From: Bradyrhizobium oligotrophicum S58
GTDB taxonomy: Bacteria; Pseudomonadota; Alphaproteobacteria; Rhizobiales; Xanthobacteraceae
Length of the DNA stretch: 64,000 nucleotides
Assembly: GCF_000344805.1 (NCBI RefSeq)
Contig: NC_020453.1
Span: 4,435,001 to 4,499,000, forward strand
Reading direction: 5' to 3'
The position numbers were made by a program, and so were the translations under genes. The notes under the pieces were generated by a model. It did no database searches. It worked only from the letters and a program-made list of their open reading frames with translations, and was not told where the DNA came from. Shown here one piece after another: positions 9,104-21,715 of the stretch (its first letter is position 1; the number at the start of each line of letters is the position of its first letter).

Positions 9104-11443
9104 TCAGCTGCCGGTTGCGGCTTGGATTTTTGGTTGGTCATTGGTCGTTTGAACCGTGCTCGCGGTTTCCCCGCTCGCCTCGGTCTTCTGCACATTGTCC
9201 GTCGCAGCCGCCTGCTCCTTGCCCCCCGGCATGGCGGCCTGGCCGGACACGGCAAAGCGCAGCCGCATCCAGGCGCCGCGCTGGCCGGCACGGAAATCAG
9301 AGGCGTCCTTGAGCTCCAGCTTGCCGCCATGGTCTTCCAGCACGCGGCCGACGATCGCGAGCCCGAGGCCGGTGCCCTTGGCGCGCGTCGTGACATAGGG
9401 CTCGAGCAGCCGCTGCCGCGCCACCTTGGGCAGGCCGATGCCGTTGTCGATCACGTCGATCAGCACGTCGTCGCCTTCACGCGAGGCCACGACGTCGATG
9501 CGGCCCTTGCCCAGTTCCTCCGGCGGCACCACCTCGATCGCCTCGGTGGCGTTCTTGATGATGTTGGTCAGCGCTTGCGAGATCAGCCGGCGGTCGAACT
9601 GCGCGCGCAGCGGATCCTGCTTGATGTCGGTCTCGATATCGATCTCGGGATGCGCGACCTTCATCAGGAACACCGCCTGCCGTACCGCGTCGGCAACGTC
9701 CTCGCCTTCCATCACGGGCTTCGGCATCCGCGCGAATCGCGAGAACTCGTCGACCATTCGCCTGATGTCGTCGACCTGCCGCACGATCGTCTCGGTACAT
9801 TGCTCAAATATGGCCTTGTCCTCGGTGATGACCTTGCCGAATTTGCGGCGAATGCGCTCTGCGGACAGCTGAATTGGCGTCAGCGGATTCTTGATCTCGT
9901 GCGCGATGCGGCGCGCGACGTCGCCCCAGGCCGAGGTGCGCTGCGCCGACACCAGCTCGGTGATGTCGTCGAGCGTGATGATGTAGCTGTCACGCGCCTG
10001 GTTGGTCTGCTCGGCGGTGACGCGCACCGAGAGATTGCGCTCGTTGCCGTCGCGCTGGATCGTGACCTGTCCCTGTACCAGCCGCTGCTTGCCTTCGCGC
10101 GCCGTCTTCATCATGTCGTCGAGCTCGGGCAGCACGTCCGACAGCGGATGATCGAGCGTCTCGGATTCGGCGTGCCCGATCAGCTTCTCGGCCGAACGAT
10201 TGAGGATGGCGACGCTGCCCGAGGCGTCGACGCCGATGATGCCGGCGGAGGCCGACGACAGCACCGCCTCGATGAAGCGGCGCCTGCTGTCGATCAGCTC
10301 GCTGGCGCTGACCAGCTCGTCGCGCTGCGTGCGCAGCTCCTGCGTCATCTTGTTGAAGGTCTGGCCGAGCTGGGCGAGATCGCCTTCCGATCTGTGCACC
10401 GAGACCTGGACGTTGAGATCGCCGGTCGCCACCGTGTGCGCGGCATTCATCAGTTGCCGGATCGGCGACACCAGCCAGTTGGCGAAGTTCAATCCGATCA
10501 GCACGGAGGCCATCAGGATGGTCAGCGCGATCACCGCGAACATCAGCGCGAAGGCGACCTGGATGCCGAGCCGGCGCGACTCGACCTGGGCGTATTCGGC
10601 GACCGAGGTCTCGGTCTGCTTGAGCTGCGCGATCACGCGCGGATCGAGCAGCCGGGCGACGTAGAGGAAGGTGTCGTTGAAGGCGCGCAGGCGGATCACG
10701 GCCGCGACGTAATTGGCGTCGGGAAACACCGCGATCTGCGGCTCGGTCTCGTTGATGTTGCTGAGGAAGTCCGCCGGCGGCGTCTGGAAGCTCTGCTGGA
10801 TGCCGGTCTCCGCCGTCTCCAGCACGGTGCGATCCTTGTCGATCAGCATCGCGCCCGGCAGGTTGCGCGAGGCGGCGCTGGCCGTCAGCAGCTCGCGGAA
10901 CGTGCCGCGGTCCTGGTCGTAGAGCGGCCGTGCATGGGCGATGTCGTTGGCCATGCCGAGGATGTCGCCGCGGATCAGCTGGGCGTGCTCATAGGTGTAG
11001 GCGCGGGCCACCGTCAGCGAGTTCTGGATCGCCTCCTTGGCAGGTCCCGAGAACAACCGGTCGAGGCCGCGGTCGATGGTGACGTTGGCGACCAGCGACA
11101 CCAGCACCGCCGGCAGCACCGCGATGATCGAGAACAGGCTGACGATCTGGACGTGCAGCCGCGCCGCGGCCCTGCCCCGCCGCCGCGCCTGGACCATCTG
11201 CCAGACCTCGCGGATGATGATCCCGACCAGGATCAGGATCGTTCCGGCGTCGATCAGCAGGAAGGTGCTGACGACCTCGGGCGTCGGCTCGATCGGGCTC
11301 AAGCCCACCAGCACGATGAAGGTGAGGAAGGACGACAACAGGGCGAGCCCGACCGCGACCGGCGCAAGCCAGGTGCGCCAGGTCCAGCGCCGGCTGTCAG
11401 CGGACGAATCGAAGGGGGTAGCCGAGGTCTCTGCGCTGGTCAT
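9104..11443 (-). CDS. ntrY: Membrane sensor histidine kinase NtrY
   Basis: A 779-aa kinase. Two N-terminal TM segments come first (around residues 30-70), then another near 90-115, a periplasmic sensor region, a TM near 290-310, HAMP, a PAS domain (ASAGIIGVDASGSVAILNRS), HisKA with the phospho-accepting His near residue 515 ([16 protein letters not shown]), and HATPase_c with N (NIIKNATEAIE), G1 (DVIDNGIGLP) and G2 (TRAKGTGLGLAIV) boxes. The C-terminal 50 or so residues are Ala/Gln/Thr-rich and poorly conserved in style. It phosphorylates NtrX in response to an envelope, nitrogen or redox cue. It heads the ntrYX operon. Confidence 0.95.
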   Translation of the reverse strand: MTSAETSATPFDSSADSRRWTWRTWLAPVAVGLALLSSFLTFIVLVGLSPIEPTPEVVSTFLLIDAGTILILVGIIIREVWQMVQARRRGRAAARLHVQIVSLFSIIAVLPAVLVSLVANVTIDRGLDRLFSGPAKEAIQNSLTVARAYTYEHAQLIRGDILGMANDIAHARPLYDQDRGTFRELLTASAASRNLPGAMLIDKDRTVLETAETGIQQSFQTPPADFLSNINETEPQIAVFPDANYVAAVIRLRAFNDTFLYVARLLDPRVIAQLKQTETSVAEYAQVESRRLGIQVAFALMFAVIALTILMASVLIGLNFANWLVSPIRQLMNAAHTVATGDLNVQVSVHRSEGDLAQLGQTFNKMTQELRTQRDELVSASELIDSRRRFIEAVLSSASAGIIGVDASGSVAILNRSAEKLIGHAESETLDHPLSDVLPELDDMMKTAREGKQRLVQGQVTIQRDGNERNLSVRVTAEQTNQARDSYIITLDDITELVSAQRTSAWGDVARRIAHEIKNPLTPIQLSAERIRRKFGKVITEDKAIFEQCTETIVRQVDDIRRMVDEFSRFARMPKPVMEGEDVADAVRQAVFLMKVAHPEIDIETDIKQDPLRAQFDRRLISQALTNIIKNATEAIEVVPPEELGKGRIDVVASREGDDVLIDVIDNGIGLPKVARQRLLEPYVTTRAKGTGLGLAIVGRVLEDHGGKLELKDASDFRAGQRGAWMRLRFAVSGQAAMPGGKEQAAATDNVQKTEASGETASTVQTTNDQPKIQAATGS

Positions 11444-11598
11444 TCCGGCAAGGTGGGTGATGCTGAACGCGGCACGTCCGGGAATCGGACTGATGCATTC
11501 CTACCACGCTGTTGCCAAATTGCGACAAATCCGCGGCGGGAGGGGAGAGCGCAGGCTAGTTTGTATGCATTTTGCGCCCTCGGGCGATGTGGATTAGG

Positions 11599-11610
11599 GT
11601 ATTTAAATAC
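11599..11610. promoter_or_regulatory. Perfect 12-bp palindrome upstream of ntrY
   Basis: GTATTTAAATAC is a perfect palindrome in a short AT-rich patch, 156 bp upstream of the ntrY start and 91 bp beyond the 3' end of the IclR gene. It is the only AT-rich dyad in this intergenic region and could be an operator or part of a promoter for ntrYX. No protein can be assigned to it from sequence. Confidence 0.3.
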
Positions 11611-11700
11611 TTATACGATGAATCCGAGCCAATATTTCTGTTCGCCAAGCGAATAACGTCAACGCAGTCGTTGGACGCAGAAGCGAGCACGCGCTGCGCG

Positions 11701-12420
11701 CTAACCACCGCACGCCGTCGTCAAGTCGACACCGGCAGTCCTCAATTGTGGACGGATCTCGTCGGCGCGCGCGGCAGTCAACCGGGTCACCGGACCCGAC
11801 AGCGCGAGGGCGCCGAGCAAGGCGCCACTCGGTCCGAACACGGGGGTCGCGAGCGCCGCAGAATGGGGATCTGTCACTCCGCTGGTGAAGATCGGCGTTT
11901 CGATCGCGGCCGCTGCTCGACCGCGATCGAAGTGTCTCAGCACCTGGGCGATCGCCGATTTGTCCATCGGGCGCAGGTCGCCGGGCTGGACATGCATGCG
12001 GATCTGATTGGCGCTTTCGACCCGAAACAGGCAGAGGCGTTGTTCGCCCCGCCGCGTGTAGAATGACGCGGTTTCACCGGTGGAGCGCGCCAGCTGCTCC
12101 AGCACGGGCGTCACGTGATCGGCAAGACCGAACGCGTGCTGGTAGCAGGCAGCAAGGCGCATCACCTCGGCATCCAGCCGGTAGCCGCCATCGTCCACGC
12201 GCCGGATCAGACCGAAACTCTCTAATGAAAGCGCCATGCGCATGACCGTCGTCTTCACGAGACCGGTGCGCTTGGTCAATTCGGCAAGACTGACCTCGCT
12301 GTCGCCGCGTTGAAATGCGGTGAGGATGCTCAACGCGCGATCGACGGCAGAGACGCCCTTGAGTCCCGAGGACTTCTCCGGCTTGACCGTCTTGCGGGGT
12401 TTGCTCGATTTCTTGGCCAC
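11701..12420 (-). CDS. IclR-family transcriptional regulator
   Basis: A 239-aa regulator with an N-terminal winged helix-turn-helix (AVDRALSILTAFQRGDSEVS, then LAELTKRTGLVKTTVMRM) and a C-terminal effector domain (GETASFYTRRGEQRLCLFRV through PLATPVFGPSG-like strands). The GTG at 12420 (VAKKSSKPRK) is preferred; the frame extends to a TTG at 12504, but that extension looks unlike family members and has no ribosome-binding site. It lies immediately downstream of the RraA-like gene on the same strand. IclR proteins usually control neighbouring catabolic genes, and a dyad found at two promoters in this cluster fits an IclR-type site (inference). Confidence 0.88.
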   Translation of the reverse strand: MAKKSSKPRKTVKPEKSSGLKGVSAVDRALSILTAFQRGDSEVSLAELTKRTGLVKTTVMRMALSLESFGLIRRVDDGGYRLDAEVMRLAACYQHAFGLADHVTPVLEQLARSTGETASFYTRRGEQRLCLFRVESANQIRMHVQPGDLRPMDKSAIAQVLRHFDRGRAAAAIETPIFTSGVTDPHSAALATPVFGPSGALLGALALSGPVTRLTAARADEIRPQLRTAGVDLTTACGG

Positions 12421-12510
12421 GTCCTCAATCCCGAACAGGCCGCGATCAGGCGACCATTTCGGGACGGTATACACACCCCCGAGCCGAAGTTCACGGCCCG
12501 GCAAGGGATG

Positions 12511-13191
12511 TTAGCCCATATATTCAACGCCCCGTTTCTTCAGCTCCTCGTCGACCCATGAACGGTCGTTGCGTCCCGCGCTGATGGCTTCGAGCTGCGC
12601 GGTCTCGGCGTCATGCTTCTTCTTCGTGGCGGCATAGATCGCCTCCGCGTCGGCGAGCGGGACGCACACGAGCCCGTCGTCGTCACCGAGAATGAGATCG
12701 CCGGGCTTGATGACCATGCCATCGATCGCGATTTGAACGTTGATCTCGCCGGGACCGTCCTTGTAGGGACCGCGATGAGTGACGCCTGCCGCAAAGATCG
12801 GGAATTTGCCGGCGCGGACCGAGGCCGCGTCCCGGATCGCGCCGTTGATGACGACGCCGCCGAGGCCACGGCGCACCGCATGTGCGATCATCAATTCTCC
12901 GATCAGCGCATTGGTGAGATCCCCGCCGGCATCGACCACGACGATGTCGCCGGGCTCTGCCACGTCGAGCGCCTTGTGAAGCATGAGATTGTCGCCGGGG
13001 CGCGATTTCACGGTGATCGCAGGGCCAGCAAGAACGCCGCCGCCGTGCATCGGACGCAGGCGGGGACCCGCCGCACTCATTCGCGACATGCTGTCGCTCA
13101 CATTGGCGACCGGTAGCTTGCGATAGCGATCGACGAGCTCCGGCGAGGCCTTCTGCTTCGGGTTTGGATAGATGCGAAAACCGGCGGTCAT
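12511..13191 (-). CDS. RraA-like / 4-hydroxy-4-methyl-2-oxoglutarate aldolase family protein
   Basis: A 226-aa protein of the RraA/HMG-aldolase fold. The diagnostic stretch is GGVVINGAIRDAASVR, with the Arg-Asp pair used by class II pyruvate aldolases, and GDDDGLVCVPLADAEAIY near residue 180 is the conserved C-terminal strand. Enzymes of this type cleave 4-hydroxy-4-methyl- or 4-carboxy-4-hydroxy-2-oxo acids to pyruvate plus oxaloacetate or pyruvate; E. coli RraA itself inhibits RNase E. The catabolic context favours the aldolase role. The start is supported by GGGAG 7 nt upstream. The IclR gene follows it, and a candidate operator lies 85 bp upstream. Confidence 0.85.
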   Translation of the reverse strand: MTAGFRIYPNPKQKASPELVDRYRKLPVANVSDSMSRMSAAGPRLRPMHGGGVLAGPAITVKSRPGDNLMLHKALDVAEPGDIVVVDAGGDLTNALIGELMIAHAVRRGLGGVVINGAIRDAASVRAGKFPIFAAGVTHRGPYKDGPGEINVQIAIDGMVIKPGDLILGDDDGLVCVPLADAEAIYAATKKKHDAETAQLEAISAGRNDRSWVDEELKKRGVEYMG

Positions 13192-13275
13192 GGCGAGCTC
13201 CCTGGTGTGACGTCCCTGCGGCCCGGCCGATCGGCGGTTGACAAAACGAGCCAGCGGCGCGATACGTACAAAAAA

Positions 13276-13300
13276 TGCAACGCCGTTTCAATTTTAAAAT
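13276..13300. promoter_or_regulatory. Candidate IclR operator in the rraA-like / dehydrogenase divergent promoter
   Basis: TGCAACGCCGTTTCA (13276-13290) is an imperfect dyad of the form TGnAACG-n-CGTTnCA, followed by the perfect palindrome ATTTTAAAAT (13291-13300). The same motif with a similar AT-rich flank occurs at 19972, upstream of the second MFS transporter gene. The site is 85 bp from the RraA-like start and 135 bp from the dehydrogenase start, so it could control both directions. Confidence 0.6.
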
Positions 13301-13425
13301 GACGGTGTGGGAAACGGTCAGCGTCCCGTCGAAGACGGGTCGGGCGGCACGATTGCCGCAGGATTCGGCCATGCGTGACATCGCACGATGGCCGGGGCGT
13401 TGCCGCCAGACGCGAAGGCAGCGAC

Positions 13426-14406
13426 ATGCGCTACAAGATTCTGATCACCGGCCCCGCCCTGACCTCAGAGGCGACCGATCTCGCCGCACGGCGCGGCGCC
13501 GCGCTCGTCCCCCATCCGCATTACGTAAGCTCTGAGGAGCTGGCCAAGGTCGCCGCCGCCGAGCAGCCCGACGCGATCATCGTGCGTCAGGGCAAGATCG
13601 ACGATCGGGTGATGGCCGCGTCGGCGAACATCAAGGCGATCGCCAAGCACGGTGTCGGCTACGACAACATCGACGTCGACGCCGCCGATCGCCGCGGAAT
13701 CCCTGTTTTCGTCGCGCGCGGCGCCAATTCGCAATCGGTCGCCGAGCTCGCTCTCGCCTTGATGTTTGCAGTGGCGCGCGAGATCCCGCGTCTCGACGCC
13801 CGCATCAAGTCCGGGCATTGGGACAAGGCGACCACCAAGGGCGTCCAGTTGTTGGGCCGCAGCCTCGGCGTGATCGGGTTCGGCGAGATCGGCCGCATCC
13901 TGGCCGGTCTGGTTCAGCCGCTGCAGATGCAGGTGCGCGTCTTCGATCCCTACATGCCAGCTGACATCAGCATCGAGGCTGCGGAGCGCGTCGGCAGCCT
14001 CGACGAAGTGCTGGCGACGAGCGACGTGATCAGCCTGCACTGCCCGTTGACGCCGCAGACGCGCAACATGATCGGCGCCGAGCAGATCGCGCGCATGCGG
14101 CGTCACTGCATCCTGATCAACACCGCGCGCGGCGGCTTGATCGACGAGACAGCACTGTTCGAAGCGTTGCGCGACGGTGTCATCGCGGGCGCCGGACTCG
14201 ATTCCTTCGCCGAGGAGCCGGCCAGGCCCGATCTTCCGCTGCTGACGCTGCCCAACGTGGTCGTCACGCCGCATGCCGGCGCCAGCACCCAGGCGGCCCG
14301 CGAGGCCATGGGCGTCATCGCCGTCAATCACGTGATGGACGTCCTGGAAGGCAAGACCATCGACCTGCGTGCGATGGTCAACAAGAAGCAGCTTCGCGTC
14401 GCTTGA
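13426..14406 (+). CDS. D-isomer-specific 2-hydroxyacid dehydrogenase
   Basis: A 326-aa NAD-dependent dehydrogenase of the phosphoglycerate/D-2-hydroxyacid family. The substrate domain carries KHGVGYDNIDVDAADRRGIP. The NAD domain has the Rossmann GxGxxG motif (SLGVIGFGEIGRILAGL). The catalytic Arg (LINTARGGLIDE), Glu (GLDSFAEEPARPD) and His (VVVTPHAGASTQAARE) are all present. ATG 13426 (MRYKILITGP) has GAAGG 7 nt upstream; a longer frame from 13375 is less likely. In its setting it probably oxidises or reduces a 2-hydroxy/2-oxo acid made by the neighbouring lactonase, hydrolases or aldolase rather than serving serine synthesis (inference). Confidence 0.88.
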   Translation: MRYKILITGPALTSEATDLAARRGAALVPHPHYVSSEELAKVAAAEQPDAIIVRQGKIDDRVMAASANIKAIAKHGVGYDNIDVDAADRRGIPVFVARGANSQSVAELALALMFAVAREIPRLDARIKSGHWDKATTKGVQLLGRSLGVIGFGEIGRILAGLVQPLQMQVRVFDPYMPADISIEAAERVGSLDEVLATSDVISLHCPLTPQTRNMIGAEQIARMRRHCILINTARGGLIDETALFEALRDGVIAGAGLDSFAEEPARPDLPLLTLPNVVVTPHAGASTQAAREAMGVIAVNHVMDVLEGKTIDLRAMVNKKQLRVA

Positions 14407-14438
14407 ACGGCGCGCATGATAAAAAATCGGAGGAGACA

Positions 14439-15776
14439 ATGGCAGAAGCCAAGACGGCGCCAAGCGCGCTGGAGCAGACGACCATGCGCCGAGTAACCTG
14501 GCGCATCATGCCGTTCATGATGATCTGCTACCTGTTCGCGATCCTCGATCGCGGCAATGTCGGCATGGCATCCCTGCAGATGGTGCAGGATCTCGGGATG
14601 TCGAAGGCGGTGTTCGGCTTCGGCGCGAGCCTGTTCTTCTTCTCCTACTTCCTGATGGAAGTGCCGAGCAACCTCGCTTTGCAGCGCTTCGGCGCGCGGC
14701 GCTGGATCGCCCGCATCATGATCACATGGGGCATCATTTCGGCCGGGATGGCATTCGTGCAGGGGCAGAACTCGTTCTACGTGATGCGCTTCATTCTCGG
14801 CGCCGCGGAAGCCGGCTTCTTTCCCGGTGTCCTGCTGTATCTGACCTACTGGCTGCCGGCCAATTATCGCGGCCGCCTGATCGCCCTGTTCGGCATCTCG
14901 ATCCCGGCCGCGACCTTCATCGGTTCTCCGCTCGGCGGACTGCTGCTGAGTCTCGACGGCCTGCTCGGTCTGCGCGGCTGGCAGTGGCTCTTCATCGTCG
15001 AGGGCGTTCCCACGGTGCTGCTCGGCCTGGTCTGCCTGTCGATCCTGACTGACAGGCCCGATCAGGCGCGCTGGTTGCGCGATGACGAGCGGGCCTGGCT
15101 GTGCGCCGAGCTCGATCGGGAAAAGGCGAGCCGACCGTCGGCGACGGAAAGGACCGGCTGGGGCTCCTTCGTACAGCTGCTGAGCAACCCCTATGTCTGG
15201 GCGATGGCGCTCGCCTGCTCCGGCGCTTCGGCGGCCGGATCGGTCCTCGGCGTCTGGCAGCCGCAGTTCCTCAAATCATTCGGGCTCACCAACCTGGAGA
15301 CCGGGTTGATCAACTCGATTCCTTATGGCGTCGCCTGCGTGCTGATGGTGCTGTGGGGGCGTCACTCGGACAAGACCGGAGAACGGCGCTGGCACACCGC
15401 GCTGACGCTGATCCTGATCTCGCTCGGTTTCCTCGGCGTCTTCGTCATCCATTCCCTGATCGGAACGGTCATTCTGCTCAGCCTGGTTCTGGTCGGCGCC
15501 TACGCGTTCAAGGGGCCGTTCTGGGCGCTGACGTCGGGCTGGCTTGGCGCCGGATCGGTGGCGGCCGGCCTTGCCATGATCAACGCCGTGTCGAACCTGA
15601 TCGGCGGCGGCCTGATGGTGAACGTCTACGGCAGCGTGCTGGAGGCGACGGGAAATCACGGGTTGGCGTTGCTGCCGATCGCGATGGTGACCATGGTCGG
15701 GGCCTCGCTGATCCTGGTCATCAGCCGGCCACGGAACGCCGAGACGTTGAGCCCTGTCATCGTGAAGGGAGCCTGA
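14439..15776 (+). CDS. MFS transporter, anion:cation symporter (ACS) family
   Basis: A 445-aa permease with 12 predicted TM helices and the hallmarks of the ACS family (tartrate, phthalate and glucarate-type uptake): CYLFAILDRGNVGMASLQM in TM1, MEVPSNLALQRFGARRWIAR after TM2, GAAEAGFFPGVLLYLTYWLP in TM4-5 and GWQWLFIVEGVPTVLLG in TM6. The ATG at 14439 has a strong Shine-Dalgarno (GGAGGAG). It is expected to import an organic acid by proton symport at the inner membrane. It lies between the dehydrogenase (33-bp gap) and a hydrolase (1-bp gap), consistent with one operon. Confidence 0.9.
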   Translation: MAEAKTAPSALEQTTMRRVTWRIMPFMMICYLFAILDRGNVGMASLQMVQDLGMSKAVFGFGASLFFFSYFLMEVPSNLALQRFGARRWIARIMITWGIISAGMAFVQGQNSFYVMRFILGAAEAGFFPGVLLYLTYWLPANYRGRLIALFGISIPAATFIGSPLGGLLLSLDGLLGLRGWQWLFIVEGVPTVLLGLVCLSILTDRPDQARWLRDDERAWLCAELDREKASRPSATERTGWGSFVQLLSNPYVWAMALACSGASAAGSVLGVWQPQFLKSFGLTNLETGLINSIPYGVACVLMVLWGRHSDKTGERRWHTALTLILISLGFLGVFVIHSLIGTVILLSLVLVGAYAFKGPFWALTSGWLGAGSVAAGLAMINAVSNLIGGGLMVNVYGSVLEATGNHGLALLPIAMVTMVGASLILVISRPRNAETLSPVIVKGA

Positions 15777-15777
15777 C

Positions 15778-16719
15778 ATGGCGAGACCCGGCACCATCAC
15801 ACGCCGCAGCTTGCTGATCGGCGCCGCGGCGACCGCAGCACTGCCCGGGGTCGCAACGGCTCAGTCACGCGAGGCCGTCCGCTGGTCGGCAGGAACGGCG
15901 AGGCCTGCCGCGAAGGCGCCGCCGAACGCGACCGACTGTCACTTCCATACCTACGATTCCAAATACCCCACGGCGCCCGGCGCGACGCTCACCCCGCCCG
16001 ACGCTTCGCCGGATGACTACAAGGCCCTGCAGCGGCGCATCGGCACCACACGCGGCGTGCTCGTGACGCCGTCGACCTATGGCACCGACAACAGCCTGCA
16101 ACTGGCCTCGATGAAGGCGCTCGGTCCGGACAATTTCAGGATGGTGGCGGTGGTCGCTGAGGACGTCTCCGATGCCGAGCTCAAGCGGCTCGACTCGCTC
16201 GGTGTCCGCGGCGTGCGCTTCAACCTGCCCTTCCCCGGTCCGCTCTCGGTCGCATCGCTCGAGAAACTGTCACCGCGATTTGCGGCACTCGGCTGGCATT
16301 GCGAGATCAACATGCGACCGCAACAGCTCGAAGCGGCGCAGGACATGCTCCTGGGCCTGCCGTCGCGAATCGTCATCGACCATCTCGGCGCGCTGCCTGC
16401 CGAGGGATTGAAGAGCCCGTCCTACGCCATCATTCGCAGGCTGCTCGACAAGGGCAACACCTGGGTCAAGCTGTCCGGCGCCTATCTGACCAGCAGGTCG
16501 CCCTATGTCGAAAGCGCTGGGATCACCGCGGCCTATGTCCGCGCCGCTCCGGAGCGCGTGGTCTGGGGCAGTGACTGGCCGCATCCGACCCGCAAGGCGG
16601 AGGACAAGCCCGATGATGCGGAGCTGTTCGACCTGATGGCGAACGCGATGCCGGACCAGGCCACGCTGCAGCGGGTGCTGGTCGACGCGCCTGCGGAGCT
16701 GTATGGGTTTGCGCCATGA
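15778..16719 (+). CDS. Tat-exported TIM-barrel amidohydrolase, 2-pyrone-dicarboxylate hydrolase-like
   Basis: A 313-aa protein with a Tat signal at residues 8-30 (TRRSLLIGAAATAALPG, then AQS) and an amidohydrolase-2 domain. The metal-site motif near the N terminus is DCHFHTYDSKYP, followed by PSTYGTDN, DHLG and a C-terminal WGSDWPHPT carrying the catalytic Asp. The family includes LigI, which opens 2-pyrone-4,6-dicarboxylate, and sugar-lactone hydrolases. The Tat signal predicts a periplasmic location, upstream of uptake by the adjacent MFS permease. The ribosome-binding site AAGGGAG lies within the MFS stop region. It is clearly paralogous to the hydrolase at 17651-18580. Confidence 0.85.
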   Translation: MARPGTITRRSLLIGAAATAALPGVATAQSREAVRWSAGTARPAAKAPPNATDCHFHTYDSKYPTAPGATLTPPDASPDDYKALQRRIGTTRGVLVTPSTYGTDNSLQLASMKALGPDNFRMVAVVAEDVSDAELKRLDSLGVRGVRFNLPFPGPLSVASLEKLSPRFAALGWHCEINMRPQQLEAAQDMLLGLPSRIVIDHLGALPAEGLKSPSYAIIRRLLDKGNTWVKLSGAYLTSRSPYVESAGITAAYVRAAPERVVWGSDWPHPTRKAEDKPDDAELFDLMANAMPDQATLQRVLVDAPAELYGFAP

Positions 16720-17636
16720 GCTGGTTCGCCCCGCCACGCCGCATCGACACGCAAGTCTTCGCCAGGCTGCCGGATCACTTCCGCAACGCCAGGCGCAGCG
16801 CCTGGGCCGACGCCAACCAGGGTGGCCGCGCGATCGACAGCTTTCTCGAAGGCCCGTCCTTCGACCGTGACGGCCGGCTCTACGTCACTGATATTCCCTT
16901 CGGGCGGATCTTTCGGATTGATCCGGACGGCGAATGGACTCTGATCGCCGAGTATGACGGCTGGCCCAACGGCCTGAAGATCCACGCCGACGGCCGCATC
17001 TTCATCACCGACTACAAGCGCGGCCTGATGCTGCTCGAGCCCGGAAGCGGCCAAGTCACGCCGTTTCTGGAGACGGTCGCGACCGAGAGCTTCAAGGGCG
17101 TCAACGACCTGGTGTTCGGACGCTCTGGCACGCTCTATTTCACCGACCAGGGCCAGACCGGCATGCACGATCCGACCGGCCGCGTCTGGCGGCTCGGCAG
17201 CGACGGCCGCCTGACCTGCCTGGTCGACACGGTCCCCAGTCCGAACGGCATCGTGGTCGATCCCGAGGAGAGTTTTCTTCTGGTCGCCGTGACCCGTGCC
17301 AACCAGGTCTGGCGCATTCCGCTGCCTGCGAGCGGCATCACCACCAAGGTCGGGGTGTTCGTGAACCTGCATGGCGGTCCCGGCGGACCCGACGGCCTTG
17401 CGCTTGACCGCGACGGCAATCTCCTGATCTGCCACACCGGCTTCGGCTCGGTGTGGCGCGTGTCGCCCGTGGCCGAACCGCTCGACCGCATCGTCTCATG
17501 CGCCGGCGTTGGCACCACCAACCTCGCCTTCGGTGGCCCCGACAACCGCAGCCTGTTCATCACCGAGAGCCGGACCGGCTCGATCCTGCGCGCCGAGCTC
17601 GAGACACCGGGCCTTGCGATGTATTCGCACGCCTGA
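16716..17636 (+). CDS. SMP-30/gluconolactonase-like lactonase
   Basis: A 306-aa six-bladed beta-propeller of the SMP-30/gluconolactonase/LRE family. Metal-binding positions are recognisable: Glu in FLEGPSFDRDG, Asn in FKGVNDLVFG, Asn in SPNGIVVDPEE and Asp in GPDGLALDRDG. Such enzymes hydrolyse sugar or other lactones to hydroxy acids. No signal peptide is visible, so it is probably cytoplasmic, unlike its Tat-exported neighbour. The start overlaps the preceding stop by 4 nt (ATGA), indicating translational coupling. It is the last gene of the plus-strand operon and converges with the minus-strand hydrolase 14 bp away. Confidence 0.88.
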   Translation: MSWFAPPRRIDTQVFARLPDHFRNARRSAWADANQGGRAIDSFLEGPSFDRDGRLYVTDIPFGRIFRIDPDGEWTLIAEYDGWPNGLKIHADGRIFITDYKRGLMLLEPGSGQVTPFLETVATESFKGVNDLVFGRSGTLYFTDQGQTGMHDPTGRVWRLGSDGRLTCLVDTVPSPNGIVVDPEESFLLVAVTRANQVWRIPLPASGITTKVGVFVNLHGGPGGPDGLALDRDGNLLICHTGFGSVWRVSPVAEPLDRIVSCAGVGTTNLAFGGPDNRSLFITESRTGSILRAELETPGLAMYSHA

Positions 17637-17650
17637 GACGCTCCGTGCCG

Positions 17651-18580
17651 TCAGGCGAAGCCGAACAGCTTCGCCGGATTGGCGACGAGGATCTTGTCGC
17701 GGATCGCAGGATCCGGCGCCCAGTCGGACGACAGATCGAACAGGACGGCGTCGTCCGGCTTCTCCTTCTCGGTCGGATGCGGCCAGTCGCTGCCCCAGAT
17801 CACACGGTCGGGCGCGGCCAGGACACAGCCGCGCGCGAGCGCGCTGGTGTCCGGATAGTCCGGAGGACCGACCTTGGTGTCGGCATAGGGCTCGGACAGC
17901 TTGATCCAGCCGCGGCCCTTTTCAGCGACGCGCAGCATGGCCTGCGCGCCGGGATGGGCAAGCCCCGCGGGCTGCGGAATCCGCCCGAGGTGATCGAATA
18001 CGACCGCCACTGGAAGTCGCGCCAGCACCGCCTCGTGCTGGGCGATCTGGTCGCCCGACATCAGCACCTGAACGTGCCATCCGAGTGGCGCGATCCGCTT
18101 CGCGGTCTGCTCGAGGCGCTCAGCCGTCGTGATGCCCCAGGATTGCGACGTCAGGAAATTGACGCGGACTCCGCGCACGCCGAGCCCATCCATCCGCTTC
18201 AACTCATCGTCGCCAATGGTCTCATCGATGACGACGATGCCCCGCGCCTCGGCGCCGAACTGTTCGAGCGCGTCCAGCAGGCACCTGTTATCGACGCCAT
18301 AGGTCGATGGCTGCACGATCACGTGGCGCGTGACGCCGAGCCGCTTCTGCAGCAGGCGATAGTCGGCGACGGTCGCACCGTCCGGCCGGCCGCCACGCCA
18401 GTGCGGCGAGACCGGAAACCGCGCATCGTAGATGTGGTGATGGCTGTCGCAGGCATTGGCCGGCGCCTTCAGCTTCGGCGCTTCCGTGCCTGCGGAGTTC
18501 GGGACGGAGCCCGCTGCCGCGGTCGTGCCGCCTGCCAGGACGAGGGCACTGGCCGCCAATAGGCTACGACGGCTGATCAT
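17651..18580 (-). CDS. Second Tat-exported TIM-barrel amidohydrolase, paralogue of 15778-16719
   Basis: A 309-aa protein with a Tat signal (ISRRSLLAASALVLAGG) and the same amidohydrolase-2 layout as its neighbour: DSHHHIYDARFP, QPSTYGVDN, GVRGVRVNF, DHLG and WGSDWPHPT. Shared motifs along the whole length show that the two are paralogues, yet they lie in opposite orientation, each paired with its own ACS-type MFS permease. This suggests two related substrates, such as different lactones or pyrones. It overlaps the MFS gene upstream by 4 nt (ATGA) and has GGAGG just before the start. Confidence 0.85.
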   Translation of the reverse strand: MISRRSLLAASALVLAGGTTAAAGSVPNSAGTEAPKLKAPANACDSHHHIYDARFPVSPHWRGGRPDGATVADYRLLQKRLGVTRHVIVQPSTYGVDNRCLLDALEQFGAEARGIVVIDETIGDDELKRMDGLGVRGVRVNFLTSQSWGITTAERLEQTAKRIAPLGWHVQVLMSGDQIAQHEAVLARLPVAVVFDHLGRIPQPAGLAHPGAQAMLRVAEKGRGWIKLSEPYADTKVGPPDYPDTSALARGCVLAAPDRVIWGSDWPHPTEKEKPDDAVLFDLSSDWAPDPAIRDKILVANPAKLFGFA

Positions 18581-19896
18581 GCGGCCTCCTTCGGGGCGGG
18601 TTTGTCATCGGCGGGATCGCCGAGCAGGAACATCACGGTCGCACCGACCAGCAGGATTGCCGAGAGGACGTAGAGCGGGGTCGAAAAGCTCTTCGTCGAT
18701 TCCCGGAGATAGCCGATCATGTAGGGGCCGACGAAGCCGCCGAGATTGCCGATCGACACGATCAGCGCGAGGCCGGCGGCGGCGGCGCGGCCGGTGAGGA
18801 ATCCGGACGGGATCGCCCAATAGGTCGCCTGGAACGACAGGATGCCGACCACCGTCACGGTCAATGCCAGCATCGCCGCCAGCGGCGCCATGAGGCTCGC
18901 GCTGATCGACAGCGCTATTCCGGCGGTCGCGAGTGCGCTGCAGACGAACCAGAGACGGTGCCGGGCCCGATTGGCGAGCCGCGCCCACAGCAGCATGCAG
19001 ATCGCGCCGAGCGCGTAGGGTGCTGCGGAAATGAAGCCGACCGCAACGTAGCTCACGCCGAAGCCGCGCACGATCTGCGGCAGCCAAAGACCAATGCCGA
19101 GCGAGCCGCAGATGCCGCAGAAATTGACCAGCGCCAGCACGAACACCTTTGGATTGGCGAACGCATCGCGCAGCGTGTTGCCGTGACGCGCCGCCAAGGT
19201 CGCCTGCTCCGCGGCCAGTCGCGCGCTGAGCTCGCGCCGCTCGTTCTGATCGAGCCATTTGGCGTCGTCCGGTCCGTCCGACAGCACGAACAGGCAGGCG
19301 ATGCCGAGCAGCACAGCCGGCAGCCCTTCGATGATCAGCAGCCACTGCCAGCCGGCAACGCCGCCGAAGCCGTCCATCGTCAGCAACGCGCCTGATATCG
19401 GCGAGCCGATCATGTTGGCGACGGGAATGCCGACCAGGAACGCCGCGGTCGCGCGGCCGCGCCAGGCGTCGGGAAACCAGTAGGTGAAATACAGATACAC
19501 ACCCGGCGTGAAGCCCGCTTCCGCCATTCCGAGCAGCAGCCGCATCACTGAGAAGCTCACCGGCCCGACGACGAGGCAGGTGAGGGTCGACAGCAGGCCC
19601 CAGCTGATCATGATGCGCGCGATCCAAAGCCGCGCGCCGACCCGCTGCATCATCAGGTTGCTGGGAATCTCGCAGAGGAAATAGCCGAGGAAGAACAACC
19701 CCGCCCCCCACCCGAACTGCGACGGCGTCAGGCCGAGATCGCGATTCATCTGCAGGCCGGCGAAGCCGACATTGATGCGGTCGAGATAGCTGACGACGTA
19801 GCAGGCGAAGATGAACGGGATGATGCGCCGCATCACCTTCGTCATCGTCGGCGTGATGTCGACCGCCGGCGCGACGCGAGCAGCCTCGCTCTCCAT
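18577..19896 (-). CDS. MFS transporter, ACS family, second copy
   Basis: A 439-aa, 12-TM permease with ACS-family signatures: CYVVSYLDRINVGFAGLQMN, CEIPSNLMMQRVGARLWIAR, GMAEAGFTPGVYLYFTYWFP and GWQWLLIIEGLPAVLLG. It is similar in plan to the transporter at 14439-15776 but clearly diverged. The start has GGGAGGAA 6 nt upstream. A candidate IclR-type operator lies 76 bp upstream (19972-19986), at nearly the same distance as the copy before the RraA-like gene. It probably imports the product or substrate of the co-transcribed Tat hydrolase. Confidence 0.9.
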   Translation of the reverse strand: MESEAARVAPAVDITPTMTKVMRRIIPFIFACYVVSYLDRINVGFAGLQMNRDLGLTPSQFGWGAGLFFLGYFLCEIPSNLMMQRVGARLWIARIMISWGLLSTLTCLVVGPVSFSVMRLLLGMAEAGFTPGVYLYFTYWFPDAWRGRATAAFLVGIPVANMIGSPISGALLTMDGFGGVAGWQWLLIIEGLPAVLLGIACLFVLSDGPDDAKWLDQNERRELSARLAAEQATLAARHGNTLRDAFANPKVFVLALVNFCGICGSLGIGLWLPQIVRGFGVSYVAVGFISAAPYALGAICMLLWARLANRARHRLWFVCSALATAGIALSISASLMAPLAAMLALTVTVVGILSFQATYWAIPSGFLTGRAAAAGLALIVSIGNLGGFVGPYMIGYLRESTKSFSTPLYVLSAILLVGATVMFLLGDPADDKPAPKEAA

Positions 19897-19971
19897 TCTG
19901 TTCCTCCCTGGTGCCTTGTTGGGCCGTTTTCCGGCCAGCTTGGGGGCACCATAAAAGGCACAAACAAATAA

Positions 19972-19986
19972 TGCAACGATGTTTCA
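19972..19986. promoter_or_regulatory. Second candidate IclR operator, upstream of the MFS/hydrolase operon
   Basis: TGCAACGATGTTTCA matches the dyad at 13276-13290 at 13 of 15 positions and is likewise followed by an AT-rich patch (TTTTAGAAAAT). On the minus strand TTGCAT overlaps this site and could be a -35 element, so binding would affect promoter access. The rest of the 19897-20272 gap holds only the ntrC-side hairpin and no supportable gene. Confidence 0.6.
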
Positions 19987-20235
19987 TTTTAGAAAATATC
20001 GATTGCTGGACGCCGATCAATCCGACGAGCCGCGCGCGCCACCGCGAAGCGCCGTCGCGGCAGCCCTGAAGGCTGCCGGCACGCACTGAGATCAACAGGA
20101 AATGATTTCAACGGGGCGCGTTATGGCCCCTCATGATCTGCGGAAAGGTGACGCGGCTTCGCGCATGCGGCGCGGCCTTGGCCGTCGCCTCGCACCCTCG
20201 CATGTGCAGATGATCGCGGACGCCGCAGGCGGTCT

Positions 20236-20257
20236 CCCCCCGCGCAGTGCCGGGGGG
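20236..20257 (-). terminator. Hairpin after ntrC
   Basis: CCCCCCG (20236-20242) pairs with CGGGGGG (20251-20257) across an 8-nt loop, starting 16 bp beyond the ntrC stop on the minus strand. The stem is strong, but no T run follows, so termination here would be weak or factor-assisted. Confidence 0.45.
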
Positions 20258-20272
20258 CTCGCAGGCAGCGAG

Positions 20273-21715
20273 CTAACCGCCGCTGCGATAGACCTGGATG
20301 TCGAGGTCGCGGATCTTCTTGCGCAGCGTGTTGCGGTTGAGGCCGAGCAGATCGGCGGCGCGGATCTGGTTGCCACGGGTCGCGGCCAGCGCGGCCGTGA
20401 GCAACGGGATCTCGATCTCCTTGAGGATGCGGTGATACAGGCCCGGCGGCGGCACGCCGTTCGGGAAGCCCTGGAAGTGCGACGACAGATAGGCCTCGAC
20501 GGCGCCGCCGAGATTGTCGATCGAGGTCGGCGCGTTGGAGCCGGTGGTCACCGCCGGCGGCGCCAGCTCGCCGTCGATCACCGAGGCCGTGATGACGTCC
20601 TGCGGATACAGCGCGGCAAGGCGCCGGGCGAGGTTTTCCAGCTCGCGGACATTGCCCGGCCAGCGGTGCTGCTTGAGCCGCTCGAGCGCGGCGGCATCGA
20701 GCTTCTTCGGCGGCAGCCCGTCCTTCTCGGCCAGCGCGAAGAAGTGCCGAATCAGATCCGGCAGGTCCTCGATACGCTCGCGCAACGGCGGTAGCCGCAG
20801 CGGCACGACGTTGAGGCGGAAGAACAAATCTTCGCGGAACAGCCCCTGCTGGATCAGGATGCGCAGATCCTTGTTGGAGGCCGCGACGATGCGCACGTCG
20901 GTCTTGATCGGGGTGCGGCCGCCGACCGTGGTGTATTCGCCTTGCTGCAAGACGCGCAAAAGCCGCGTCTGCGCCTCCATCGGCATGTCGCCGATCTCGT
21001 CCAGGAACAAGGTGCCGCCCTCGGCCTGCTCGAAGCGGCCCGAGGCGCGGGTGTTGGCGCCGGTGAAGGCGCCGCGCTCATGGCCGAACAATTCCGACTC
21101 GATCAGGTCGCGCGGGATCGCCGCCATGTTGACCGCGACGAACGGACCATTCCGGCGCTTGCCGTAATCGTGCAGCGCGCGCGCCACCAGTTCCTTGCCG
21201 GTGCCGCTCTCGCCGGAGATCATCACGGTGAGATCGGTCTGCATCAGCCGCGCCAGCACGCGGTAGATCTCCTGCATCGCCGGCGAGCGGCCGACCAGCG
21301 GGATCGATTCGAACTCGCTGTCGTCAGGCTGGCTCGCCGCCCGCTCCTTGGGCTCGGCGAGTGCGCGGCCGACGATCGCGATCAGCTCCTTCAGGTCGAA
21401 CGGTTTTGGCAGATATTCGTAGGCGCCGCGCTCCGACGCGCGGATCGCGGTCATGAACGTATTCTGCGCGCTCATGACGATGACCGGCAGATTCGGCCGC
21501 ATCTTCTTGATCCGCGGCAGCAGGTCGAACGCGTTCTCGTCCGGCATCACCACGTCGGTGATGACGAGATCGCCCTCGCCCTGGCTGACCCAGCGCCACA
21601 GGGTGGCGGCGTTGCCGGTCAGCCGCACCTCATAGCCGGCGCGTGACAGCGCCTGGTTCAGGACCGTGCGGATGGCCGTATCGTCGTCGGCAACGAGAAT
21701 GCTACCTGCAGGCAT
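20273..21715 (-). CDS. ntrC: Nitrogen regulator NtrC
   Basis: A 480-aa sigma-54 activator. The receiver has phospho-acceptor D54 ([12 protein letters not shown]). The AAA+ domain has Walker A GESGTGKE, the sigma-54-contact GAFTGA loop ([19 protein letters not shown]) and Walker [15 protein letters not shown] Fis-type helix-turn-helix ends the protein ([20 protein letters not shown]). It activates genes for nitrogen scavenging when phosphorylated by NtrB. It is last in the dusB-ntrB-ntrC operon, 9 bp after ntrB. The intact GAFTGA contrasts with its loss in NtrX in the same window. Confidence 0.97.

Follow-up and report, generated by a model that had tools for sequence, protein, structure and literature searches.

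Two predicted operators for one IclR regulon

A cluster of eight genes in a 64-kb stretch of DNA from Bradyrhizobium oligotrophicum S58 (hereafter the window, part of a single-contig genome of 8,264,165 bases) carries two 15-bp dyads, which are very probably the operators of the cluster's own IclR-family protein (encoded at 11701–12504) and would govern all eight genes; comparison with related loci makes this the best explanation as a whole. That the IclR protein would bind both sites is, on the same comparison, close to certain. The genes follow one another in the order IclR and RraA (both minus strand), DHDH, MFS1, AH1 and SMP30 (all plus), and AH2 and MFS2 (both minus), where DHDH denotes a D-2-hydroxyacid dehydrogenase, MFS a transporter and AH an amidohydrolase. 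They likely form three transcription units, RraA-IclR, DHDH-MFS1-AH1-SMP30 and MFS2-AH2. The gene order is observed, and co-transcription is deduced from spacing and overlaps: the IclR gene adjoins the RraA gene on the same strand, the genes from DHDH to SMP30 overlap or are at most 32 bases apart, and AH2 and MFS2 overlap. One dyad lies in each of the two upstream regions, the divergent one of RraA and DHDH and the single one of MFS2.

13276–13290: predicted operator 1, TGCAACGCCGTTTCA, between the divergent RraA-IclR and DHDH-MFS1-AH1-SMP30 units, from sequence comparison
19972–19986: predicted operator 2, TGCAACGATGTTTCA, upstream of MFS2-AH2, from sequence comparison

An earlier, sequence-only reading of the window had reported both dyads with exactly these sequences and coordinates, and its description of them holds. 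The two are identical at 13 of 15 positions, both fit the symmetrical form TGNAACNNNGTTNCA exactly, with the TGnAAC...GTTnCA symmetry it had described, and their flanks are alike and AT-rich (AAAAAA and AAATAA before, ATTTTA and TTTTAG after). With 30-base flanks included, 40 of 75 bases are identical between the two sites. Its distances of 85 and 76 bp to RraA and MFS2 were counted to the start codon, and 84 and 75 bases intervene. It had also claimed that the only regulator among the eight genes is of IclR type, which is the case. The regulon would be larger than it stated: site 1 also precedes the divergent DHDH start, by 135 bases, which had been omitted, and would thereby front DHDH-MFS1-AH1-SMP30 and, via RraA-IclR, the regulator's own gene. 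Because site 1 stands between divergent operons, the two sites cover the three likely units and all eight genes. By analogy with its family, an IclR dimer would read each inverted TGMAAC half-site, with operator 1 serving RraA-IclR and DHDH-MFS1-AH1-SMP30, and operator 2 serving MFS2-AH2.

In the window there are two occurrences of the exact form TGNAACNNNGTTNCA; 100 dinucleotide shuffles averaged 0.02, and none of them reached two. With one mismatch allowed the same two matches are found, a number that 20 of 100 shuffles reach, and TGCAACGNNGTTTCA with two mismatches gives three matches, a number reached in 12 of 100 shuffles; one of the three is site 1 read on the second strand. With mismatches allowed the counts are thus unremarkable, and the window alone is not convincing. 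A chance resemblance of two AT-rich upstream stretches could draw on these relaxed counts, but chance and base composition are contradicted by the exact-form shuffles and by the leave-out matrices described below, and the dyads persist while their flanks drift in eight and seven aligned loci, so that the probability of this explanation is negligible.

Over the whole genome (8.26 Mb), the exact form is found at five places, against two for a reversed control. Two of the five are the window dyads, 6.7 kb apart. Of the rest, one falls within a PhyR-type gene, and two stand in tandem in the region separating a TetR-family gene from a divergent FAD-binding protein gene. This tandem pair, TGGAACACCGTTCCA and TGGAACAGCGTTCCA at G000:C1:4820123-4820162 (L003), with centres 25 bp apart, is a probable TetR operator of the same outline. 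A scan of the same genome for a wider regulon, with one mismatch allowed, returned 12 places, and its reversed control 10; operator 1 was the only match to a longer operator pattern there. No sign of distant targets appeared at the three places inspected of the ten other one-mismatch places (one, L053, in an open reading frame (ORF); the others the TetR-side tandem pair).

The sites accompany the IclR orthologue

A scan of named genomes with the IclR protein gave 17 loci, of which L036–L050 (58–90% identity) hold the same kind of cluster; L051 and L052 (31% and 29% IclR matches) were excluded from all matrices and counts. The window layout is present wholly or partly in L036, L037, L039 (Azospirillum lipoferum) and L038 (a metagenome-assembled genome), and eleven loci are rearranged, L040 being a 3-kb piece. 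Further loci came from an SMP30 protein search of 265 genus genomes (186 matches at 1e-60), from which 20 stretches were taken, and duplicates were removed (L099, equal to L037; L103, to L036; L118, to L041). The 26 distinct orthologue loci are the window, L036–L050, L100–L102 and L111–L117.

An operator-like site scoring at least 28.0 precedes cluster genes in all 26 of these loci. No site was found in any of six stretches (L104–L106 and L108–L110) that have an SMP30 homologue (59–76%) and no IclR match at 1e-15, where scores stayed at or below 1.8 or 3.7 depending on the matrix; L104 and L105 span only 11.7 and 9.5 kb, so the IclR gene could lie outside them, and one of the six ends 1.6 kb past SMP30. 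The comparison of related genomes that the sequence-only reading had suggested as a check thus supports its proposal that a single IclR regulon spans the cluster's two halves. Around other IclR-family genes (L008–L035, about 1.5 kb on each side), scores did not exceed 6.7 at any of 28 loci.

In 15 orthologue loci (285,148 bases), exact sites number 15 (mean of 200 shuffles, 0.13) and one-mismatch sites 31 (mean 3.59), and 12 of the 15 loci have an exact-form site. A leave-out matrix from L038–L050 (26 sites) ranks the window sites first and second in the 64 kb, with scores of 43.4 and 38.1, the next being -2.4. The same two come first and second (41.4 and 38.1; next 4.6) with a matrix from the 18 rearranged loci only (58–65% identity, 40 sites), for which every one-mismatch place of these loci was used, at least one of them not among the high-scoring sites. 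With a matrix from the eight window-type loci (15 sites), the top score is at least 23.6 in every one of the 18 rearranged loci. One of the 31 one-mismatch sites, at 15058 of L036, lies outside the cluster and was kept out of the matrices that scored the 26 loci.

The outcome named beforehand as fatal to the proposal, a motif common in genomes and unrelated to IclR-linked genes, is not what was found: across the roughly 127 Mb of the 15 orthologue genomes, the stricter pattern TGNAACGNCGTTNCA turns up 16 times, 11 of these inside IclR loci. Ten of these genomes have it at the IclR locus, one (G065) has an off-locus place only, and four lack it altogether, either because the contig is short or because their sites do not fit this stricter pattern. 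The one inspected of the five off-locus places (L059) is inside an ORF. Among 35 same-genus genomes, the 34 without an orthologue (best IclR matches at most 44%) hold 18 places, and G014, the only one with an orthologue, has a single place, at the locus.

The sites might instead belong to another regulator, TetR-type or another IclR-family protein, with their linkage to this iclR gene being coincidental. Two of the three other exact places in the genome are indeed between a TetR-family gene and its neighbour, and the genome holds nine matches to the IclR protein. Since other places lie at TetR-family and PhyR-type genes, the symmetrical form alone is not IclR-specific; it is the orthologue comparison that singles out IclR. 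The sites follow this orthologue across rearrangements and into Azospirillum and are missing from the stretches without an IclR match, which makes another regulator very improbable.

In L039 (Azospirillum lipoferum, Rhodospirillales, another order of bacteria), the eight cluster genes and both operators are present, with 74–89% protein identity to the window, a likely case of horizontal transfer of the cluster together with its control sites. In L107 (10661–13927), a 40% IclR is divergent from a 61% RraA, with a weaker dyad, CGTAACGGCGTTCCA, between them (scores of 14.1 and 15.4) and two aconitase-family genes after RraA; it looks like a cousin system.

Rearranged loci

Alignment of the upstream regions from four genomes places each dyad within strongly conserved sequence; one or two positions of the dyad itself vary. 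Where RraA is flipped (L044, L045, L047 and L111–L115), it has its own site in 8/8 loci, 38–41 or 133–134 bases before the match start, the weakest being that of L045 (score 16.3); these loci are related and represent fewer than eight events. Where RraA is co-directional (L041, L042, L043, L116 and L117), it has its own site in none of five, and it is out of view in L040, L046 and L048–L050. TctC and TctA genes are placed between the divergent promoter and RraA in L038, and the operator remains at the divergent promoter. AH1 has no match in L043–L045 and L111, and there the site precedes SMP30. The predicted operator tracks the starts of transcription units through inversion and insertion, nearly invariant while its flanks drift. 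In the rearranged group, no strong site turned up ahead of the IclR gene. Upstream of MFS2, tandem dyads 23 bp apart, TGAAACGNCGTTTCA-like and then TGCAACGNCGTTCTA-like, are present in 10/10 of L041–L050; L113 and L114 have a single dyad only.

Promoter geometry and mode of action

Candidate promoters were located on both sides.

13238–13266, plus strand: predicted DHDH promoter, TTGACA (13238–13243), 17 bp, GATACG (13261–13266); operator 1 starts 9 bp after it
19948–19976, minus strand: predicted MFS2 promoter, TTGCAT (19976–19971, overlapping operator 2), 17 bp, TATGGT (19953–19948)

On the DHDH side, the distance from TTGACA to the following dyad is 38 bases (39 in L039) in 8/8 window-type loci, NATANN comes 17 bases after TTGACA (by eye), and the dyad would cover about +4 to +18. 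On the MFS2 side, TATNGT lies 18 bases after the dyad in 7/7 loci (by eye), and the right end of the dyad, TTGCAT, would serve as its -35 box. The DHDH layout recurs at the flipped RraA promoters of L113 and L114, as TTGACA-17-GATAAC followed by the operator (spacings by eye). An operator at the DHDH start point and over the MFS2 -35 box favours repression, and IclR probably acts mainly in this way. As a repressor it would, from these conserved positions, cover the DHDH start point and the MFS2 -35 box, and, by analogy with the family, a substrate or intermediate of the pathway would release it.

Several observations weigh against reading the dyads as operators of an IclR repressor. A strict sigma-70 consensus scan found no promoter in either upstream region. 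In the rearranged group, the AH1 site is centred near -51 (by eye), upstream of the likely -35 box, where activators more commonly sit. The symmetrical form is matched as well at a TetR-family promoter elsewhere in the genome, and three of the 15 orthologue loci (L040, L041 and L050) have variants only and no exact-form site. Finally, the 23-bp spacing of the tandem sites in relatives falls outside the 18–22 bp given for IclR-family tandem sites (PMC8222616).

The position of the AH1 sites, together with that of operator 2 (centred near -38, by eye), would suit a different role of the same IclR protein at the same sites, as an activator or as a dual regulator that activates the catabolic units and represses its own. 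PobR and PcaU are activating or dual-role regulators. Two papers point the same way, one stating that the IclR family includes activators, repressors and dual regulators (PMC8222616), the other proposing a dual role for BhcR (PMC11323563). However, the operator starts 9–10 bp after the predicted DHDH -10 box in 8/8 loci, where a bound protein should block, and the same arrangement recurs in L113 and L114; we consider activation or a dual role unlikely and repression the better account.

The IclR protein and known systems

The regulator belongs to the IclR family by its helix-turn-helix (HTH) domain (PF09339, 46.1 against a cut-off of 22) and its C-terminal effector domain (PF01614, 51 against 24). 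Its true start is likely the GTG at 12420 (239 aa), because L036 has a MAKK start and there are relatives of 239 aa; relatives of other lengths exist. One HTH position, residue 83 of the window protein, is V or I in 17/17 sampled orthologues, and in six sampled homologues of 35–42% identity it is Y in five and A in one.

Its best NCBIfam match is BhcR (91.1 bits), which is encoded among enzymes of the beta-hydroxyaspartate cycle. This score is far below the equivalog cut-off of 350 (NF045644), and its 49 bits for KdgR (NF011671, cut-off 275) and 72.7 bits for PcaR/PcaU/PobR (TIGR02431, cut-off 284.75) also fall short. The protein is not KdgR, because it falls short of the curated equivalog cut-off. 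The BhcR of Paracoccus is likewise an IclR-family regulator beside a divergent promoter region (PMC11323563), but the gene content differs.

The operator form resembles published ones. Group-2 IclR operators are given as TGRAACA-N1-2-TGTTYCA in the survey of Suvorova & Gelfand (2021, PMC8222616), which also places COG3618 (the LigI group) among the frequently associated regulon genes. The symmetrised counts of 55 sites here give TGMAAC-N3-GTTKCA, sharing with group 2 the 15-bp dyad, the TGRAAC half-site, the three-base centre and the adjacent regulator; sites precede adjacent operons and the regulator's own unit in the window and the window-type loci. In contrast to the published consensus, the centre is mostly GNC rather than ANT and the window half-sites carry A or C at their third position, and the tandem spacing differs as noted above. 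The KdgR operator RWWGAAACGNCGTTTCAKKA, from the same survey (PMC8222616), has a core, GAAACGNCGTTTCA, and AT-rich flanks that match the consensus found here, whereas the KdgR gene content differs. Hence the operator form is already published, as the group-2 operator and the KdgR core, and the window regulon is a well-supported further case as judged by comparison. A literature search by title and abstract start, which did not extend to the supplement of PMC8222616 that may list this orthologue group, found nothing on this cluster.

A wider interpretation, which we offer tentatively, is that a non-KdgR IclR orthologue group with a KdgR-type operator controls a lactone/hydroxy-acid pathway, and that its regulon has been repeatedly rewired in Bradyrhizobium. 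Units arising by inversion or insertion would carry their own operator, in a position varying by promoter (start point, -35 box or upstream), and the same protein may thus be a repressor at some units and an activator at others.

The gene cluster and its presumed pathway

11701–12504, minus strand: IclR-family regulator (PF09339 and PF01614)
12511–13191, minus strand: RraA-like aldolase-family protein (PRK06201 subfamily cut-off reached; weaker match to LigK/PcmE)
13426–14406, plus strand: DHDH, D-2-hydroxyacid dehydrogenase (PF02826, PF00389)
14439–15776, plus strand: MFS1, HpaX/D-galactonate-transporter-like (below cut-offs)
15778–16719, plus strand: AH1, LigI-like amidohydrolase (PF04909; LigI and 4mup relatives; Tat-type signal by eye)
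16716–17636, plus strand: SMP30, SMP-30/gluconolactonase-like protein (PF08450)
17651–18580, minus strand: AH2, LigI-like amidohydrolase (PF04909; Tat-type signal by eye)
18577–19896, minus strand: MFS2, HpaX/D-galactonate-transporter-like (below cut-offs)

In the clusters of relatives there are further genes, for a DUF1932 protein whose N-terminus looks dehydrogenase-like by eye, for TctC and TctA, and for an FAD-linked oxidase. In protocatechuate 4,5-cleavage, LigI catalyses the lactone step and LigK the aldol step. The cluster recalls that pathway in having two LigI-like amidohydrolases and one LigK-like protein, but the RraA protein, which matches the RraA-like Pfam family, reaches only 144 bits against the LigK/PcmE aldolase cut-off of 304.5 (TIGR02798), no LigJ-type gene is annotated among the eight, and the dehydrogenase and SMP-30 protein are extra. 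The amidohydrolases, at 143.6 and 151.4 bits, also stay below the cut-off of 500 for 4-sulfomuconolactone hydrolase (NF042924). No cluster protein reaches an equivalog cut-off for a known substrate, and no single compound emerges from the relatives, which are LigI, 4mup (a D-galactarolactone isomerase) and gluconolactonase.

From this gene set, a role in lactone/hydroxy-acid catabolism is reasonably likely, and our guess for the substrate is a lactone of a hydroxy-dicarboxylic or sugar acid. Lactonase-like proteins, two of them with export signals, MFS uptake, oxidation by the 2-hydroxyacid dehydrogenase and RraA-type aldol cleavage would make up the route. A single chemical signal could switch all eight genes of this organic-acid breakdown cluster, which occurs in several Bradyrhizobium and an Azospirillum and for which exact operators can now be predicted. 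Since the operators lie in front of the cluster's units and no further target came to light, the substrate could be approached directly, through derepression in an iclR mutant or by screening ligands on the IclR protein.

The cluster is flanked by an NtrY-like gene (9104–11443) and an NtrC-like gene (20273–21715), both named from sequence by eye, and separates the two (11443–20273). In 6/12 other genus genomes (L124, L125, L126, L128, L129 and L130), ntrC lies 0.2–0.5 kb before ntrY without the cluster; IclR precedes ntrY as in the window in four (L119–L122), and ntrC was not found in the short flank in two (L123 and L127). A search of the IclR–ntrY gap for a copy of the ntrC end gave no match in the window, L037, L100 and L101 and only a 23-bp match in L102. 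In L036 this gap, the far junction, holds a 216-bp copy of the ntrC 3′ end (10837–11052), 97% identical to its own ntrC, which resembles a scar of cluster insertion.

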